Origin: Streptococcus macacae NCTC 11558
Lineage (GTDB): Bacteria; Bacillota; Bacilli; Lactobacillales; Streptococcaceae
Length of the DNA stretch: 64,000 nucleotides
Assembly: GCF_000187995.2 (NCBI RefSeq)
Contig: NZ_AEUW02000001.1
Coordinates: 1,302,001 to 1,366,000, forward strand
Direction: 5' to 3'
A model generated the notes under the pieces. The model ran no database searches. It was given only the letters and a program-made list of their open reading frames with translations, and was not told where the DNA came from. A program made the translations under genes and the position numbers. Shown piece by piece: positions 18,571 through 30,075 of this stretch; position 1 is the stretch's first letter, and the number at the start of each line of letters is the position of its first letter.

Positions 18571-18735
18571 TTAATGTGTGTAATAATAATAAGCTTTACC
18601 CACAGCATAGCCTGCACCATAGACAAGTGTCACAGCAGCTATTCCTGTCCCAATAGCTGCCAGAACCTCTCCACCATTAACATCCATTAATTCGTCATCT
18701 GTCATCTCTGCATAGTTTGTTATCGAAGTTGTCAT
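18571..18735 (-). CDS. Double-glycine bacteriocin peptide, copy 2 (EVLAAIG type)
   Basis: Same 54-residue precursor as 17740-17904, with no nucleotide difference that I can find, although the neighbouring partner gene differs. It lies 39 nt downstream of variant B. Identity suggests recent duplication or gene conversion. Confidence 0.82.
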   Translation of the reverse strand: MTTSITNYAEMTDDELMDVNGGEVLAAIGTGIAAVTLVYGAGYAVGKAYYYYTH

Positions 18736-18774
18736 TGTCAGTACCATCCTTTGCTATTATTAATTACTATTAGA

Positions 18775-19640: not shown

Positions 19641-19802
19641 TTAACGTACTCTAAAAGGAACAATAACAGGCTTTGGAATGTAAAAAGATCCTATAGTTGC
19701 ACCAACAATAGCACCTATTTCTGCCCAAGTCATACCGCCTTCTATCGTAGCTAACGTCTCTGTATCCATTGTTTCAAATTGATTGAATTTTTGTGTATTC
19801 AT
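19641..19802 (-). CDS. Double-glycine bacteriocin peptide (MTWAEIG type)
   Basis: A 53-residue precursor: 23-residue leader MNTQKFNQFETMDTETLATIEGG, mature 30 residues starting MTWAEIGAIVGATIG with two GxxxG motifs, ending in the Pro-rich basic tail PKPVIVPFRVR. This is the shape of a class IIb peptide; the 19844 peptide, 41 nt upstream, is its likely companion. AAGGAGAT precedes the ATG. Confidence 0.8.
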   Translation of the reverse strand: MNTQKFNQFETMDTETLATIEGGMTWAEIGAIVGATIGSFYIPKPVIVPFRVR

Positions 19803-20521: not shown

Positions 20522-20803
20522 ATGAATACTTTAACTTTCGATCAATTTGACACTATGGATAATGAGGCTCTTTCTTCTGTTGAAGCTGGTGGTGTCATTT
20601 TAGGGGTAACTGGAGCAATAGCTGGTGGTGTCGGTGGCTTTTTCGCAGGAGGAGCAGCTGGAGGGGCTGTTGGAACAGTAACACTTCCTGTAGTTGGTAC
20701 AATTGCAGGAGCCACAGCTGGAGCTATTGGCGGAGCTATAACTGGTGCTGCTACTCTCGGTATATCTGGGGCAAGTGTTAATACTTGGGGACCTTGGATT
20801 TAA
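20522..20803 (+). CDS. Double-glycine bacteriocin precursor on the plus strand
   Basis: A 93-residue precursor with leader MNTLTFDQFDTMDNEALSSVEAGG (24). The cleavage site is EAGG rather than the usual VEGG, an apparent one-residue insertion. The 69-residue mature peptide is extremely Gly/Ala-rich (GAIAGGVGGFFAGGAAGGAVG) and ends SVNTWGPWI; no Cys. AAGGAGATA precedes the ATG. The next gene is a small membrane protein, probably its immunity factor. It is the only precursor transcribed with the exporter strand. Confidence 0.82.
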   Translation: MNTLTFDQFDTMDNEALSSVEAGGVILGVTGAIAGGVGGFFAGGAAGGAVGTVTLPVVGTIAGATAGAIGGAITGAATLGISGASVNTWGPWI

Positions 20804-21529: not shown

Positions 21530-21565
21530 AGAATTACAATTGTTATAATGAGAAAGGTAGAGGTT

Positions 21566-23779
21566 ATGTTAGATTCCTTCAAATCTGCTTTACAGCAGTT
21601 CGCCGCCAGCATACGCTTTAAGTTCAAATCATTACGATCTTATAAATATGTTCCGCAGATAGACTCCAGGGATTGTGGGGTCGCTGCCTTGGCTTCCATC
21701 GCCAAATATTATGGCTCGGATTATTCATTAGCTCACTTGCGAGAACTGGCTAAAACCAACAAGGAAGGTACAACTGCACTGGGTATTGTGGAAGCGGCCA
21801 AAAAGATGAAATTTGAAACACGCGCTATTAAAGCCGATATGTCTCTCTTTGATGTAGAGGATATTCCTTATCCTTTTATCGTCCATATCGTCAAAGATGG
21901 CAAGTTGCAGCACTACTACGTTGTCTACGGTCAGGAAAAAGAAAAAGTAATCATTGGCGACCCTGATCCTACTGTTAAAATAACAAAAATGTCCAAATCG
22001 CAATTTGCAGAAGAATGGACAGGTGTTGCTATTTTTCTGGCACCTGAACCTAGTTATGAACCGCATAAAGACGAAAAGAATGGCTTATCTAGTTTTTTCC
22101 CTCTCATATTAAAGCAAAAAGCACTTCTTAGTTACATTATCATGGCCAGTTTAATGGTGACACTGATTGATATCGCAGGTTCCTATTATCTACAAGGTAT
22201 TCTGGATGAATATATCCCTAATCAGCTCATTTCAACACTGGGTATTATCTCTATTGGCTTAATTATCACCTATATCATCCAACAGATGATGGAGTTTGCC
22301 AAAGGTTACTTACTGGTGGTCCTAAGTCAGCGTCTTGTTATTGATGTTATCCTTTCTTATATTAGACACATCTTTACCCTGCCGATGTCTTTTTTTGCTA
22401 CAAGAAGAACAGGGGAAATTACCTCACGTTTCTCTGATGCTAATTCCATTATTGATGCCGTGGCTTCAACCATTTTTTCTATCTTTTTGGACCTTACCAT
22501 GCTTATTTTAGTCGGCAGTGTCCTATTGATACAAAATGGCAACCTTTTCCTGCTTACACTCATTTCAATTCCTATCTATACAGTGATTATCTTTGTTTTC
22601 ATGAAACCTTTTGAAAAAATGAATCAGGAAGTCATGCAGAGCAATTCGATGGTTTCTTCTGCCATCATTGAAGATATCAATGGTATTGAAACCATTAAAT
22701 CTTTAACCAGTGAAACTGCCCGTTATCAAAATATTGACAGTGAATTTGTGGATTATTTGGACAAATCTTTCAAACTCCATAAATATGAAACGCTGCAAAC
22801 ATCACTTAAAAAAGGGGCTCAATTGATTCTCAACGTTGTCATTTTGTGGTGCGGTGCTCAATTGGTTATGGATGATAAAATATCGGTCGGCCAGCTCATT
22901 ACTTATAATTCTTTATTAACCTACTTTTCTAATCCTATTGAAAATATTATCAACCTGCAAACCAAACTGCAGTCTGCCAGAGTGGCTAATAATCGTTTAA
23001 ATGAAGTTTATCTTGTCGAATCAGAATTTAACGATACTGGAACTTTATCAGACAGTGACTTCCTTGCTGGAGATATTACTTTTGAAGACTTATCTTATAA
23101 GTATGGTTTTGGAAGAGACACTTTATCAGATATTAATTTAAGGATCAAAAAAAATGATAAAGTCAGTATCGTTGGTGTCAGCGGATCTGGAAAGACCACT
23201 CTAGCGAAAATGATTGTTCATTTTTATGACCCTTATAAGGGACATATTCGAATTAATGGCAATGACTTAAAAACAATTGACAAAACCACTTTGCGGCAAT
23301 ATATCAATTATCTGCCGCAGCAGGCTTATATCTTTAGTGGAACTATCTTTGAAAACCTAACATTAGGAGCTAAAGAAGGCATTAGTCAGGCAGATGTTCT
23401 AAAGGCTTGTGAAATTGCTGAAATTCGCTCAGATATTGAACAAATGCCTATGGGCTATCAAACAGAACTCTCTGACGGAGCCGGTCTATCAGGCGGACAA
23501 AAACAGCGGGTTGCTTTAGCACGTGCACTTTTAACAAAGTCTCCTGTTTTAATTCTTGATGAAGCTACCAGCAGTCTTGATGTCCTTACTGAGAAAAAAA
23601 TTATGGATAACCTGCTGCAGATGGCAGACAAGACTGTTATCTTTGTTGCTCATAGACTCAGTATCTCTCAGCGGACCAATAGAGTTATTGTTATGGATAA
23701 AGGAAAAATTATTGAAGAAGGTACACATAGTGAACTTATTGCAGCAAATGGTTTTTATCATCACTTATTTAACAAATAG
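21566..23779 (+). CDS. C39 peptidase-containing bacteriocin ABC exporter
   Basis: A 737-residue NlmT/ComA-type transporter that removes double-glycine leaders and exports the mature peptide. The C39 peptidase domain has Cys37 in DSRDCGVAAL, His116 in LQHYYVVYG and Asp132 in IIGDPDP. Six membrane segments follow (about 175-440), then the ATPase with Walker A GVSGSGKTT, signature LSGGQKQR and Walker B VLILDEATS. The ATG at 21566 is chosen because AAAGG lies 8 nt before it; an ATG at 21548 has no ribosome site. It should serve all precursors in the locus. Confidence 0.93.
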   Translation: MLDSFKSALQQFAASIRFKFKSLRSYKYVPQIDSRDCGVAALASIAKYYGSDYSLAHLRELAKTNKEGTTALGIVEAAKKMKFETRAIKADMSLFDVEDIPYPFIVHIVKDGKLQHYYVVYGQEKEKVIIGDPDPTVKITKMSKSQFAEEWTGVAIFLAPEPSYEPHKDEKNGLSSFFPLILKQKALLSYIIMASLMVTLIDIAGSYYLQGILDEYIPNQLISTLGIISIGLIITYIIQQMMEFAKGYLLVVLSQRLVIDVILSYIRHIFTLPMSFFATRRTGEITSRFSDANSIIDAVASTIFSIFLDLTMLILVGSVLLIQNGNLFLLTLISIPIYTVIIFVFMKPFEKMNQEVMQSNSMVSSAIIEDINGIETIKSLTSETARYQNIDSEFVDYLDKSFKLHKYETLQTSLKKGAQLILNVVILWCGAQLVMDDKISVGQLITYNSLLTYFSNPIENIINLQTKLQSARVANNRLNEVYLVESEFNDTGTLSDSDFLAGDITFEDLSYKYGFGRDTLSDINLRIKKNDKVSIVGVSGSGKTTLAKMIVHFYDPYKGHIRINGNDLKTIDKTTLRQYINYLPQQAYIFSGTIFENLTLGAKEGISQADVLKACEIAEIRSDIEQMPMGYQTELSDGAGLSGGQKQRVALARALLTKSPVLILDEATSSLDVLTEKKIMDNLLQMADKTVIFVAHRLSISQRTNRVIVMDKGKIIEEGTHSELIAANGFYHHLFNK

Positions 23780-23791
23780 AAAGGCATGCAG

Positions 23792-24799
23792 ATGAACCCA
23801 AATTTATTTAAAAGCGCTGAATTCTACCGAAGACGCTATCATAATTTTGCTACAGTTCTTATTATTCCTTTGGTTTGTTTACTTGTATTTTTATTTATCT
23901 TTCTATTATTTGCTAAAAAAGAGGTCACTGTCTTATCTAATGGCGAGATCTCTCCCCTTAAAGTAATTGATGTTATTCAATCTAAAAGCGACTATCCCAT
24001 TTCTGAAAATAATTTAACAGATAATCGCGCCGTTAAAAAAGGGGATGTTCTCATCCAATATGTTAATCCAGCAGCAAATACAAGACAGGGCGGAAATAAT
24101 CAGAATCAATCTCAAAACAAGCAAAATAAGAATCAGCAGCAAAACAATAAGAATCAAAAGAACGGCAATCAAGGTCAAAAAAATCAAAATCAGAACCAAA
24201 ATAAAAAGGATCAGAAAAACAATAACCAATCTCAGCAAAACAAGCAAGGACAAAAGAAAACTAATCAATCCCAAAATCAGCAGAATAAGAATCAAAATAA
24301 AAACCAATCTCAAAACAAACAAAATGGGAATCAAAACCAAAATAACTGGAATCAGAATAATCAAAATGATAAAGTCACAGCCAGCCAAGATGGTGTTATC
24401 CATACCAACCCCAAATATGAAGGTGAAAACTTAATTCCTCGGGGGACTGAAATCGCACAGCTCTATCCAGATATTAACAAAACAAGACAAGTTCTGATCA
24501 CTTATTACGTCTCCTCTAAAGATGTCACCCGCCTCAAACAAGGCCAAAAGACTCGTCTTGCTTTAACCAAGGTAGGAAATGATCAAATTTCCATTAGAGG
24601 AAAAATTAATAGTATCGCTTCAGCTGCTACAACGACGAAAAAAGGCAATGTCTTTAAAGTGACAGCTAAAGCAAAAGTTTCTAAAAAAGACAGCCAAACC
24701 ATTAAATACGGCCTCCAAGGTAAAACCATCACAGTTGTTGAAAAAAAGACTTTCTTTGATTATTATAAAGATAAACTGTTAAATAAAAATCAAAAATAA
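23792..24799 (+). CDS. Exporter accessory protein (ComB/NlmE-like) with Asn/Gln/Lys-rich insert
   Basis: A 335-residue HlyD-family adaptor. The N-terminus MNPNLFKSAEFYRRRYHNF and the one membrane helix (about 21-41) match ComB/NlmE, as does the C-terminal part with GVIHTNP, LITYYVSSKDV and FDYYKDK. In ComB the middle is a coiled coil of roughly 200 residues. Here residues 99-192 consist almost only of N, Q and K with some S and G. Start 23792 has AAAGG 7 nt upstream. It probably partners the exporter 12 nt upstream; the insert is odd, not obviously a frameshift product. Confidence 0.88.
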   Translation: MNPNLFKSAEFYRRRYHNFATVLIIPLVCLLVFLFIFLLFAKKEVTVLSNGEISPLKVIDVIQSKSDYPISENNLTDNRAVKKGDVLIQYVNPAANTRQGGNNQNQSQNKQNKNQQQNNKNQKNGNQGQKNQNQNQNKKDQKNNNQSQQNKQGQKKTNQSQNQQNKNQNKNQSQNKQNGNQNQNNWNQNNQNDKVTASQDGVIHTNPKYEGENLIPRGTEIAQLYPDINKTRQVLITYYVSSKDVTRLKQGQKTRLALTKVGNDQISIRGKINSIASAATTTKKGNVFKVTAKAKVSKKDSQTIKYGLQGKTITVVEKKTFFDYYKDKLLNKNQK

Positions 24800-25492: not shown

Positions 25493-26539
25493 TCAAATTT
25501 TTAATTTTGCTAAAGCATCATAAAGAAAAGATAAAAATGCTGTGATAGCCTTAGTCACTAGTTTTTTATCTGCTTCTTCATCTGTCATTTGTGATGAATC
25601 TGATTTTTGGCTTGCTGAAACAGCAGATTGTGCTGATTTTTGGCGAGGTGCAGGTCCTCCGCTCCCTGGAACAGTTTTTACTTGCTCAGTAGGATTAGTG
25701 GTGTTTTCTTTATCAGCAATAGGAGTATCTTTAAGAGCAGACGTCTGATTTCCAGATTTCAATTCTTCTTTATGATTGCTATTGCTGTATAACTTGTTGT
25801 AAAGCTCTTTTGAAGGGATACCGCTTCCTACCCAACCTGAAACTAACTGACCTTTATCAATAAACAAAGTCATTGGAGTCGCAAAAATCCCTACTTTATT
25901 CTTGAGAAATTCCTTAGCTGCTATAGTGAAGTCATCTCTGTCCGTATTATAATAATAAAGCTGAGAACCGGTCAAACCGTTAAATTCTTTCAAAATTGGA
26001 GAAAAGTCCCGGCAATAGTGACAAGTCGGACGGCCAATATATAAGGTATAGCTGTTTTCTGTGTCATCAAACATGTGGTAAACATCAGCCATGCTCACCG
26101 CTTTAAAATGAGAGACATTGGCTTCATATTTTTCCGTTGAAATACTTTCTGCTGCTGTATTTTGATTCTCCGAGGATTGCTCAGCTGAGGTATTAGCAGC
26201 AGCTTCCCCTTGAGATAACGGAGACTTTTCATTTTCTGCAGTTTGATCAGATGTCTTTGGTGGGGTTTGCTGTTCAGTATTGTCACCACCATCATTTTCC
26301 TTCTGCTCCTCTTTGTTTTCAGAAGAGGATAAGGCTGAAGCAGTCGTTTCTGTTGTTGACACTGTTTCTTTATTAACAGTAGTAGTGTCACTGCTTTGTA
26401 CTTCTGTCGTTACAGCAGGTGTGCTCATTTCCGTTTTTTCCAAGTTTTCTCCTTGAGATACATCCTCTGCAAAAGCTGCACCGCCTGCTAATAATAGTAT
26501 TGAGGTGGACAATAATAATATGGATTTGCTAAATTTCAT
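25493..26539 (-). CDS. Secreted thioredoxin-like protein, bacteriocin accessory
   Basis: A 348-residue exported protein: signal peptide about 1-24 (cleavage after AFA), a Ser/Thr/Glu/Gln-rich linker to about 135, a thioredoxin-fold domain (about 140-250) with active site PTCHYCRDF (Cys173, Cys176) and cis-Pro in FATPMTLF, and a disordered C-terminal extension. It resembles PedC/BrcD-type bacteriocin transport accessory proteins that promote disulfide formation. It lies beside Cys-containing bacteriocins including a class IIa one. The C-terminal 90-residue extension and long linker are unusual for that family. Confidence 0.82.
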
Positions 26540-27357: not shown

Positions 27358-27654
27358 CTAGTATCCATATCTAATATTTGATAAATCTCTCAATTTCTTT
27401 AATTGACTAGACTGATGATTTGATAAAAGAATACCATTTTCTGTCACTATACGGGAAATGTCAACATTCATTCGGCTTAATATAAATGGGATTGAAATTT
27501 TTGGATTTTTTACTTCTTCCTTATACTGAAATAATATATTTTGCAAAGGCTGACTATTTCTATCTTCCTTTAGCTCACCTAATAATGCTTCAATGATCAC
27601 TACTGCCTGCTCTTTTCTAGTTTTACCATCTGAAAACCATTTCAGTTTAGCCAT
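27358..27654 (-). CDS. Bacteriocin immunity protein, EntA-immunity type
   Basis: A 98-residue soluble, helical protein ending NGILLSNHQSSQLKKLRDL-SNIRYGY, the signature C-terminus of the enterocin A immunity family (four-helix bundle). Such proteins protect the producer from class IIa bacteriocins by binding the bacteriocin/mannose-PTS complex. The start overlaps the stop of the class IIa gene (TAATG), so the two are translationally coupled and functionally paired. Confidence 0.88.
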   Translation of the reverse strand: MAKLKWFSDGKTRKEQAVVIIEALLGELKEDRNSQPLQNILFQYKEEVKNPKISIPFILSRMNVDISRIVTENGILLSNHQSSQLKKLRDLSNIRYGY

Positions 27655-27866
27655 TAAATAACTCCTCCTGAGTGCCAGCCAGCTTTGCCATCAGTAGCCC
27701 AATTCATTGCTGAATTATTTAGGATAGTTGTAATAGCTGTTCCCCAGTCCGTTGTACATCCTTTTTTAGTGCAAGTAACCCCATTTCCATAGTAAGTTCC
27801 ACCTTCAATAATTGAAAGGGCTTCCTTATCCATTACTTCAAATTGTTCAAATACTGGTGTATTCAT
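27654..27866 (-). CDS. Class IIa (pediocin-like) bacteriocin precursor
   Basis: A 70-residue precursor: leader MNTPVFEQFEVMDKEALSIIEGG (23) and a 47-residue mature peptide starting TYYGNGVTCTKKGCTTDWG. YGNGV followed by C-x4-C is the pediocin box; a central amphipathic helix (TAITTILNNSAMNW) and hairpin tail GKAGWHSGGVI follow. One disulfide is expected. Class IIa peptides kill through ManMN permeases. The leader is of the local Nlm type, so the usual exporter is the likely one. Confidence 0.93.
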   Translation of the reverse strand: MNTPVFEQFEVMDKEALSIIEGGTYYGNGVTCTKKGCTTDWGTAITTILNNSAMNWATDGKAGWHSGGVI

Positions 27867-28435: not shown

Positions 28436-28624
28436 CTAGAAAAAAGATTCTACAACACCTACTGCGCATCCTGCTGCCATGCCAGCAGGTCCGCCCCATA
28501 CCCCAAGCAAGGCATCGCCAGCACAATAGCCCGCAGCTTTGAAAATTCCAGACTTCCCTCCTTCAATTTGTGATAATTCATCTTCAGTCAAACTTTTATA
28601 GTCCATATAATCATTTTTAAGCAT
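28436..28624 (-). CDS. Double-glycine bacteriocin peptide (KSGIFKAAG type)
   Basis: A 62-residue precursor: leader MLKNDYMDYKSLTEDELSQIEGG, mature 39 residues starting KSGIFKAAGYCAGDALLG with GxxxG motifs and two Cys, ending GVVESFF. The ribosome site AGGAGG lies 6 nt before the ATG. Only 10 nt separate it from the upstream YNCTG peptide, so they are probably the two halves of a class IIb bacteriocin. Confidence 0.85.
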   Translation of the reverse strand: MLKNDYMDYKSLTEDELSQIEGGKSGIFKAAGYCAGDALLGVWGGPAGMAAGCAVGVVESFF

Positions 28625-28634
28625 AAGATACCTC

Positions 28635-28862
28635 CTAGAAAAATCGAGAACTTAATTGTCCACCAACACATTTCAACCCACCTGCAATAACACCAACATG
28701 AGCTCCAACAAATGCTCCAACCGGTCCGCCAGCTAAGGCACCTCCAGCGGTTCCACTAGCAACTCCAGTCACAAAATCTCCAGTACAGTTATATCCACCT
28801 TCAACAACAGAAAGCGCTTCATTATCCATTACGTCAAATTGTTCAAATACTTGTGTATTCAT
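28635..28862 (-). CDS. Double-glycine bacteriocin peptide (YNCTGDF type)
   Basis: A 75-residue precursor: leader MNTQVFEQFDVMDNEALSVVEGG, 52-residue mature peptide starting YNCTGDFVTGVASGTAGGA, Gly/Ala-rich with a second Cys in LKCVGGQ. It is first gene of an operon driven by the regulatory cassette at 28912-29150. The leader hairpin TTGTC...GACAA lies before the ribosome site. Confidence 0.87.
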   Translation of the reverse strand: MNTQVFEQFDVMDNEALSVVEGGYNCTGDFVTGVASGTAGGALAGGPVGAFVGAHVGVIAGGLKCVGGQLSSRFF

Positions 28863-29856: not shown

Positions 29857-30075
29857 CTAACCACCAATCACATAACCCCAATATCCACTATATGCACCTG
29901 CACCCGCTGCACAAGCTGCTACTACCCAGGGGCCTCCTAAAGAACAGGCTTTCGCTCCTTCCACAGCACCCATTGCAGCTGATATTACTGCATTTCCCAA
30001 CCTACGATCTCCTCCGGTAATTGAAGATAATTCTATATTTTTTAGTTCAGTAAATTTTTGATTAATATTTTTCAT
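29857..30075 (-). CDS. Double-glycine bacteriocin peptide (DRRLGNAV type)
   Basis: A 72-residue precursor: leader MKNINQKFTELKNIELSSITGG (22), mature 50 residues starting DRRLGNAVISAAMGAVEGA with two Cys and ending GAYSGYWGYVIGG. The leader differs from the MNTQ series but keeps the L-x4-ITGG cleavage pattern. GGAGGAAG lies before the ATG. It may act with the NlmA-like peptide upstream, which is broken. Confidence 0.84.
   Translation of the reverse strand: MKNINQKFTELKNIELSSITGGDRRLGNAVISAAMGAVEGAKACSLGGPWVVAACAAGAGAYSGYWGYVIGG

Follow-up and report, generated by a model that had tools for sequence, protein, structure and literature searches.

A clade of streptococcal NlmE-type exporter adaptors bears a short hydrophilic insert, asparagine- and glutamine-rich in Streptococcus macacae, where the family otherwise has a long one

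The window analysed here is a stretch of 64,000 nucleotides from Streptococcus macacae NCTC 11558 (contig NZ_AEUW02000001.1, positions 1,302,001 to 1,366,000). It bears an ABC exporter gene of the nlmT/comA type, directly followed by the gene of an accessory protein of the nlmE/comB type, whose two halves are separated by an unusual insert:

21548..23779, + strand: nlmT/comA-type peptidase-containing ABC exporter gene, 743 aa, intact (TIGR01193 1125.8 bits, PF03412, PF00664, PF00005)
23786..24799, + strand: nlmE/comB-type accessory (HlyD-like adaptor) gene, 337 aa (TIGR01000 284.9 bits against a cut-off of 258.85; PF13437)
23792..24061, + strand: N-terminal half (residues 1–90 of 335), with the membrane helix and the first half of the lipoyl/barrel core (from the model and clade identity)
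24062..24373, + strand: hydrophilic low-complexity insert, 104 aa, residues 91–194 of 335, 66% N+Q, replacing the family's long (hairpin) insert
24374..24799, + strand: C-terminal half, second lipoyl half, β-barrel, C-terminal helix and stop codon (PF13437 at 196–309 of 337)

The exporter unites a C39 peptidase, a transmembrane region and an ATPase, and in a profile search of its own genome it is the only protein over the TIGR01193 cut-off, the eight other matches being weaker. The adaptor frame starts six bases 3′ of the exporter gene, making this a two-gene unit, and in the same genome (G000) the adaptor is the sole match to its own protein, to TIGR01000 and to HlyD_3. All 28 aligned rows carry a methionine at the place of 23792; hence, translation likely starts there, and the protein probably comprises 335 residues. 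A conserved tyrosine (residue 90 of 335) precedes the insert, and the second conserved half follows it. Compared with six close relatives—the clade described below—the N-terminal half shows 63–70% and the C-terminal half 63–68% identity, both without gaps. A preliminary description of this DNA had proposed an accessory protein with an Asn/Gln/Lys insert between well-conserved ComB/NlmE ends behind an exporter gene, and reading frame, position, insert and ends all bear this out.

The adaptor scores above the curated cut-off of TIGR01000, adjoins its partner C39-peptidase ABC exporter and bears an N-terminal membrane helix as well as the lipoyl/barrel fold (by PF13437 and the structural model). 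What it lacks is the long coiled-coil hairpin at about positions 119–225 of the profile, which aligns only over 2–118 and 226–457. Since a protein can pass the NCBIfam cut-off without the hairpin, which six relatives also lack, we class this one as a family variant rather than a typical member. By analogy to the family, and to what is reported for nlmTE of S. mutans, the gene product would be required for the export of double-glycine peptides. Weak Pfam and NCBIfam matches (Presenilin, Piezo, AuxB and the like) were dismissed as chance products of low complexity.

Between 17900 and 30100, inspection by eye shows the exporter pair to lie in an island of small ORFs, encoded on either strand, whose leaders are of the double-glycine type. 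Examples on the minus strand lie at 18571–18747, 19641–19802, 27654–27866, 28436–28624, 28635–28862 and 29857–30075; a leader ORF on the plus strand (20522–20803) reads AGG in place of GG. The small double-glycine ORFs of the island are likely bacteriocins exported by the adjoining pair. On the minus strand, 25493–26539 encodes a thioredoxin-like protein that starts in the manner of a signal peptide and is rich in S/T/E in its N-terminal region; its likeness to the bacteriocin-maturation disulfide isomerases PedC/BrcD is weak (75.5 bits against a cut-off of 120).

The 104-residue insert contains 69 N+Q and 15 K, a result that is the same in the base-shuffle analysis, for which the insert was taken two residues longer. 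Residues 99–193 of the ORF counted from 23786 comprise 80 N, Q or K out of 95. The preliminary description had called residues 99–192 almost only N, Q and K—a numbering from the second methionine (23792), its nucleotides 24086–24367 being residues 101–194 counted from 23786—and was right in this respect. The densest 80-residue stretch of the insert bears 57 N+Q; of all 69 window frames that run from stop to stop over 100 aa or more, the runner-up has only 19. The lysines are interspersed among N and Q, and there is a single aromatic residue. Among 1000 base shuffles of the insert—with stop codons dropped, so that shuffled chains are slightly shorter—none reached 69 N+Q (mean 18) and none bore as few hydrophobic residues (5 seen, 19 expected), with K and D/E likewise fewer than expected. 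As base shuffles never match it, the N/Q composition lies in the pattern of codons, and A-rich DNA alone does not account for it.

The suggestion that the insert expanded by repeat slippage finds no support beyond composition. As many as 392 of 1000 codon shuffles contain an exact DNA repeat as long as the longest one in the insert (14 nt). Taken one by one, the autocorrelation lags of 21 nt (1 of 1000 codon shuffles) and 75 nt (0 of 1000) are unusual, but 35 of 1000 shuffles attain the same best value at one or another of the 33 lags tried; Tandem Repeats Finder reports two weak arrays with scores of 35 and 62. An origin of the N/Q insert by frame shift was considered and rejected: of the insert's two other forward frames one is I/K/R-rich and one is without a listed 50-aa frame (by eye), and the shifted frames of a broken relative are R/K-rich. 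Opposite the insert, an antisense open frame of 129 aa (24014–24403, minus strand) is very rich in L/I/V/F; it is most simply a by-product of low-complexity codons.

To place the insert within the genus, 284 genomes were searched, 68 of which match at E ≤ 1e-40; in an earlier draw of 197 genomes, 117 match at E ≤ 1e-5. The 45 adaptor rows compared here are the best-scoring loci together with hand-picked short frames—and hence no census of the genus—each distinct and with both ends in one frame. Left out were L006 and L037 (frame split), L045 (C half only) and the duplicates L011, L043 and L044. Long inserts of 209–235 residues with 18–26% N+Q and 30–37% A/I/L/M/F/V/W/Y are found in 32 of the 45 rows; that these are coiled-coil hairpins is taken from their composition and from excerpts of PMC4446572. 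Seven rows (window, L002, L003, L004, L005, L033, L034) bear short polar inserts of 69–104 residues with 4–14% A/I/L/M/F/V/W/Y. The remaining joints measure 27 residues (L047–L049), 68 (L046), 109 (L013) and 125 (L007).

In a tree calculated from the ends alone, the seven polar rows form one clade (support 100/99, 200 of 200 bootstrap trees) and correspond to one change, with the window being sister to the other six; long branches elsewhere in the tree gave rise to a warning of the tree tool. The six sister inserts are rich in K/E/D/S and contain only 4–12 N+Q each, and among the seven the N/Q-rich insert is found in the window only. Insert length differs between species of the clade. One member (L034, genome G234) is presumably S. 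mutans, as a ComC sequence matches at 98% over 46 residues; its NlmE comprises 300 aa, the length of SMU.287. Since this clade—S. mutans included—has 69–104 hydrophilic residues throughout, the short insert is a property of the clade and not of a single odd gene. Of the preliminary description, which had asked for insert lengths in relatives, the replacement of the family's long insert stands; an insert typical of all orthologues, part of what it had named as speaking against its proposal, is found within the seven-member clade only.

Several further relatives deserve mention. By its ends, L006 (G127) is an eighth member of the clade, whose frame is broken within the A-rich insert into two frames (minus strand, between 1501 and 2450). 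This split could reflect decay, slippage switching or a sequencing error, and it indicates that the adaptor gene can be lost. In another species, an adaptor gene of the long kind (L037, G252) is split into two frames as well. L047, L048 and L049 (G073, G036, G098) represent an adaptor type of ~257 aa, whose halves are joined by 27 residues only and which adjoins an exporter gene in the case of L048/L089; judged from sequence, this would be a still more extreme hairpin loss. L046 and L084–L087 (G025, G276, G189, G154, G166) form a separate short adaptor lineage with frames of 301–309 aa and no obvious coiled coil. In an order-wide draw of 395 genomes, 59 match TIGR01000 at E ≤ 1e-30, a strict threshold that may miss further short forms. 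Seven of these 59 have frames below 400 aa—the window with 339, one with 369, four with 309 and one with 301—and low complexity was not seen by eye in the six other than the window.

Ends and insert evolve differently. The ends of the seven clade members align without a gap in 21 of 21 pairwise comparisons, and 20 of these pairs show gaps in the insert. Insert dN exceeds that of both ends in all 21 pairs, with most dS values being saturated. The cleanest pair, and the sole close one that gives a clean measure of constraint, is L003/L004: its insert shows a dN of 0.067 and a dS of 0.376 (dN/dS ~0.18) without gaps, and its ends a dN of 0.005 and 0.015. With dN below dS and no gaps, the insert is still constrained—relaxed but not free. 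In six of the seven members, the first 25–30 insert residues show a helix-like E/K/Q/R pattern by eye.

Two of the short-insert proteins were modelled with AlphaFold2 on alignments of 28 of the 45 rows. For the window protein, pLDDT is mostly above 90 in both halves: the N-terminal half, a helix at 3–40 followed by strands, has block means of 76–96 and the C-terminal half of 82–97, falling to 61 over the last five residues. The insert has block means of 31–63 with low-confidence helix pieces, values that are partly due to the few informative rows at the insert. A FoldIndex-type score is −0.83 for the window insert, whereas the 17 long inserts of the alignment score between −0.12 and +0.06. Confident halves around a low-confidence insert agree with the earlier proposal that the insert is probably disordered. 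The S. mutans model contains an uncertain helix at 96–126 and a pLDDT below 50 at 122–154; together with the E/K/Q/R pattern, this indicates that the six inserts with that pattern are not wholly disordered, and by the model the first turns of the former helix may persist in relatives.

A sequence search of the PDB gave no relative with E ≤ 0.1. Compared with PDB structures by VIA-align, the model reaches tied Z values for MacA (13.2, 3FPP), BesA (13.1, 4KKS) and Spr0693 (12.1), so that hairpin-bearing MacA ranks level with BesA by this measure. One BesA form (Z 12.3) superimposes with 2.8 Å over 161 residues, and HlyD with 2.0 Å over 68 residues only. In Foldseek, BesA shows the lowest rmsd—3.9–4.0 Å for most chains and 8.0 Å for one—against 14–29 Å for the others. 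Helicases and similar VIA-align hits with Z below 8 were regarded as unrelated. A BesA-like fit of the model is the pattern expected of an adaptor without a hairpin.

A long insert might be provided in trans, or the exporter might compensate for the short one. A profile search found no long TIGR01000 member over the cut-off in any of the eight clade-group genomes; G036 bears a second, even shorter TIGR01000 adaptor (261-residue frame), and G043 a weak match of 20.7 bits, whose frame of 460 residues may encode a further, longer type of adaptor. The window exporter is 78.9% identical to that of S. suis (L031), whose partner has a long insert, and 77.3–78.7% identical to those of S. mutans, G043 and G036, whose partners have short ones, all without gaps over 710–713 residues; with the exporter of S. 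henryi, another long-insert partner, identity is 78.3% with one two-residue gap. By these alignments, the exporter does not compensate for the short adaptor insert.

Taken as observed, then, ends, exporter and reading frame are conserved, and the long insert is absent clade-wide, with none found over the cut-off in those genomes. As the most likely explanation, we put forward a working NlmE-type adaptor that has lost its long hairpin, with the ring as the essential part and the insert as an unstructured hydrophilic spacer or brush—a reading for which we see the chances as evenly balanced. Hereby, the lipoyl/β-barrel ring of NlmE would sit on NlmT and stabilize or gate the exporter, and this ring would be what the adaptor is needed for. 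The insert would be an unstructured, strongly hydrophilic loop linking the two halves of the lipoyl domain, which protrudes by a few nanometres and forms a soft brush around the exit. It could keep the split lipoyl domain foldable and hinder wall polymers and hydrophobic bacteriocins from adhering at the exit. It would not be able to serve as a rigid tube: a hairpin of ~110 residues per arm reaches ~15 nm (1.5 Å per residue), whereas a disordered loop of 70–104 residues that starts and ends on the same lipoyl domain would extend only a few nanometres and make no conduit. If only hydrophilicity and rough length matter, the insert sequence might drift between K/E/D/S-rich and N/Q-rich.

The central step is that an adaptor without a long hairpin supports export. 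By analogy, this would follow from the position of S. mutans within the clade and the need for nlmTE in mutacin export—provided that G234 is S. mutans—and thus from experiments of others on a sister system. According to excerpts of PMC9416482 and PMC3628994, nlmTE of S. mutans is required for the export of non-lantibiotic mutacins, with nlmT and nlmE being core genes. This suggests that a rigid long insert is not always needed for export, and the view of the preliminary description that the insert points to another way of crossing or docking is sustained insofar as it implies an adaptor without the usual helical tube. We propose with more reserve, and rather doubt than believe, that a streptococcal clade, in its bacteriocin-exporting ABC–adaptor complex, replaced a rigid helical tube by a disordered hydrophilic brush that retains its physical character while the amino-acid alphabet changes (K/E/D/S to N/Q or the reverse), a soft selective exit being sufficient.

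The brush has to be weighed against rival readings of the insert. After hairpin loss, a low-complexity linker might have been left or grown by A-rich drift as a passive filler that merely joins the halves. Such a filler is consistent with the fast divergence of insert sequence and length, with the A-rich DNA (47–56% A) beneath all seven inserts and with the shorter joints of 27 (L047–L049) and 68 residues (L046), which show that some relatives do without a long linker. However, length is confined to 69–104 residues in seven of seven members, the L003/L004 insert shows the constraint described above, and hydrophobic residues lie below the base-shuffle expectation in six of the seven inserts (at most 25 of 1000 shuffles being as low; for L005, which is not depleted, 569 of 1000). 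Above this expectation are N/Q in the window insert and K plus D/E in the others. We consider the filler unlikely, and it nonetheless heads the rivals, followed by a wall anchor and then by aggregation. As a wall anchor, the insert would be a flexible polycation binding anionic wall polymers—teichoic acid or a phosphate-bearing rhamnan—and thereby placing the exporter under the wall. With a net charge of +10 to +17 in the inserts of the seven clade members and of −22 to +5 in the 32 long inserts, selection for positive charge looked convincing at first, yet base-shuffled inserts reach the same charge (means of +14 to +23, with the window at +14 below its own expectation of +23). Hence, positive charge need not be selected, and we moved this idea from the proposal to the rivals, where it appears slightly less probable than the filler.

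The composition of the window insert might further suggest a prion-like or phase-separating domain that clusters exporters, as raised in the preliminary description. A count of 30 N+Q in 80 residues was once used to flag yeast-type prion domains, and the 57 found here are far above it. On the contrary, 15 interspersed lysines, one aromatic residue and sister inserts with so few N+Q—by which N/Q is not the conserved property—make this improbable. Least credible of all is that a normal hairpin gene appears altered through misassembly or pseudogene decay: the broken frame of L006 fits such a fate, but the window genome is a single contig, its adaptor frame is complete with conserved ends, and six relatives with short inserts are unbroken.

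A working adaptor without its hairpin would bear on what such hairpins are for. Available sections of the literature call the long hairpins of Gram-positive adaptors, which meet no outer-membrane channel, 'puzzling' (PMC4338810) and 'difficult to rationalize' (PMC4446572). Removal of the hairpin in one clade, next to an almost unchanged exporter, constitutes a natural experiment on its purpose, and close relatives with different inserts offer a ready-made comparison for locating the working part of the adaptor. If the brush is real, a soft selective exit does a job thought to need a rigid conduit. The insert of NlmE-type adaptors is not described in those parts of the literature searched, a scope beyond which the primary nlmTE paper lies. 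New here, within the literature searched, is hence that a known family has a clade-wide short-insert variant, of which the window genome carries an N/Q version. The hairpin-less adaptor is a natural variant rather than a system of a new kind.

Among known systems, BesA of Borrelia burgdorferi (4KKS/4KKT/4KKU; Z 12.3–13.1) shares lipoyl and barrel domains without an α-hairpin, but belongs to an RND efflux system with an outer-membrane channel and is only 12–16% identical; the available parts of PMC4446572 and PMC4338810 mention no polar insert for it. Spr0693 of Streptococcus pneumoniae (5XU0, Z 12.1) shows the same lipoyl and barrel fold. Unlike the window protein, it bears an α-hairpin barrel and forms a hexameric nanotube, whose modelled assembly of ~154 Å in height is compared with the depth of the inner-wall zone in an excerpt of PMC5768738. 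Nearer in sequence is the long-insert ComB/MesE/LcnD-type adaptor of S. suis (L031), with ends 69% and 56% identical and an exporter 79% identical to those of the window, but with an insert of 223 residues and a net charge of −13. ComB/MesE/LcnD-type adaptors, ComB included, are credited with extremely large hairpins in the text available of PMC4446572, and lactococcal LcnD is described as essential, and as perhaps stabilizing its exporter, in that of PMC9652874. The closest counterpart is NlmE of S. mutans (ComB, SMU.287; L034, G234). Its ends are 66% and 69% identical to those of the window protein, and the adjacent exporter NlmT is 78% identical without gaps. Both adaptors fall into the same clade and bear a short hydrophilic insert in genomes where no long family member exceeds the cut-off. 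They differ in what fills the insert: in S. mutans 69 residues rich in K/E/D/S, with 8 N+Q and a possible helix at the start, and in S. macacae 104 residues with 69 N+Q.
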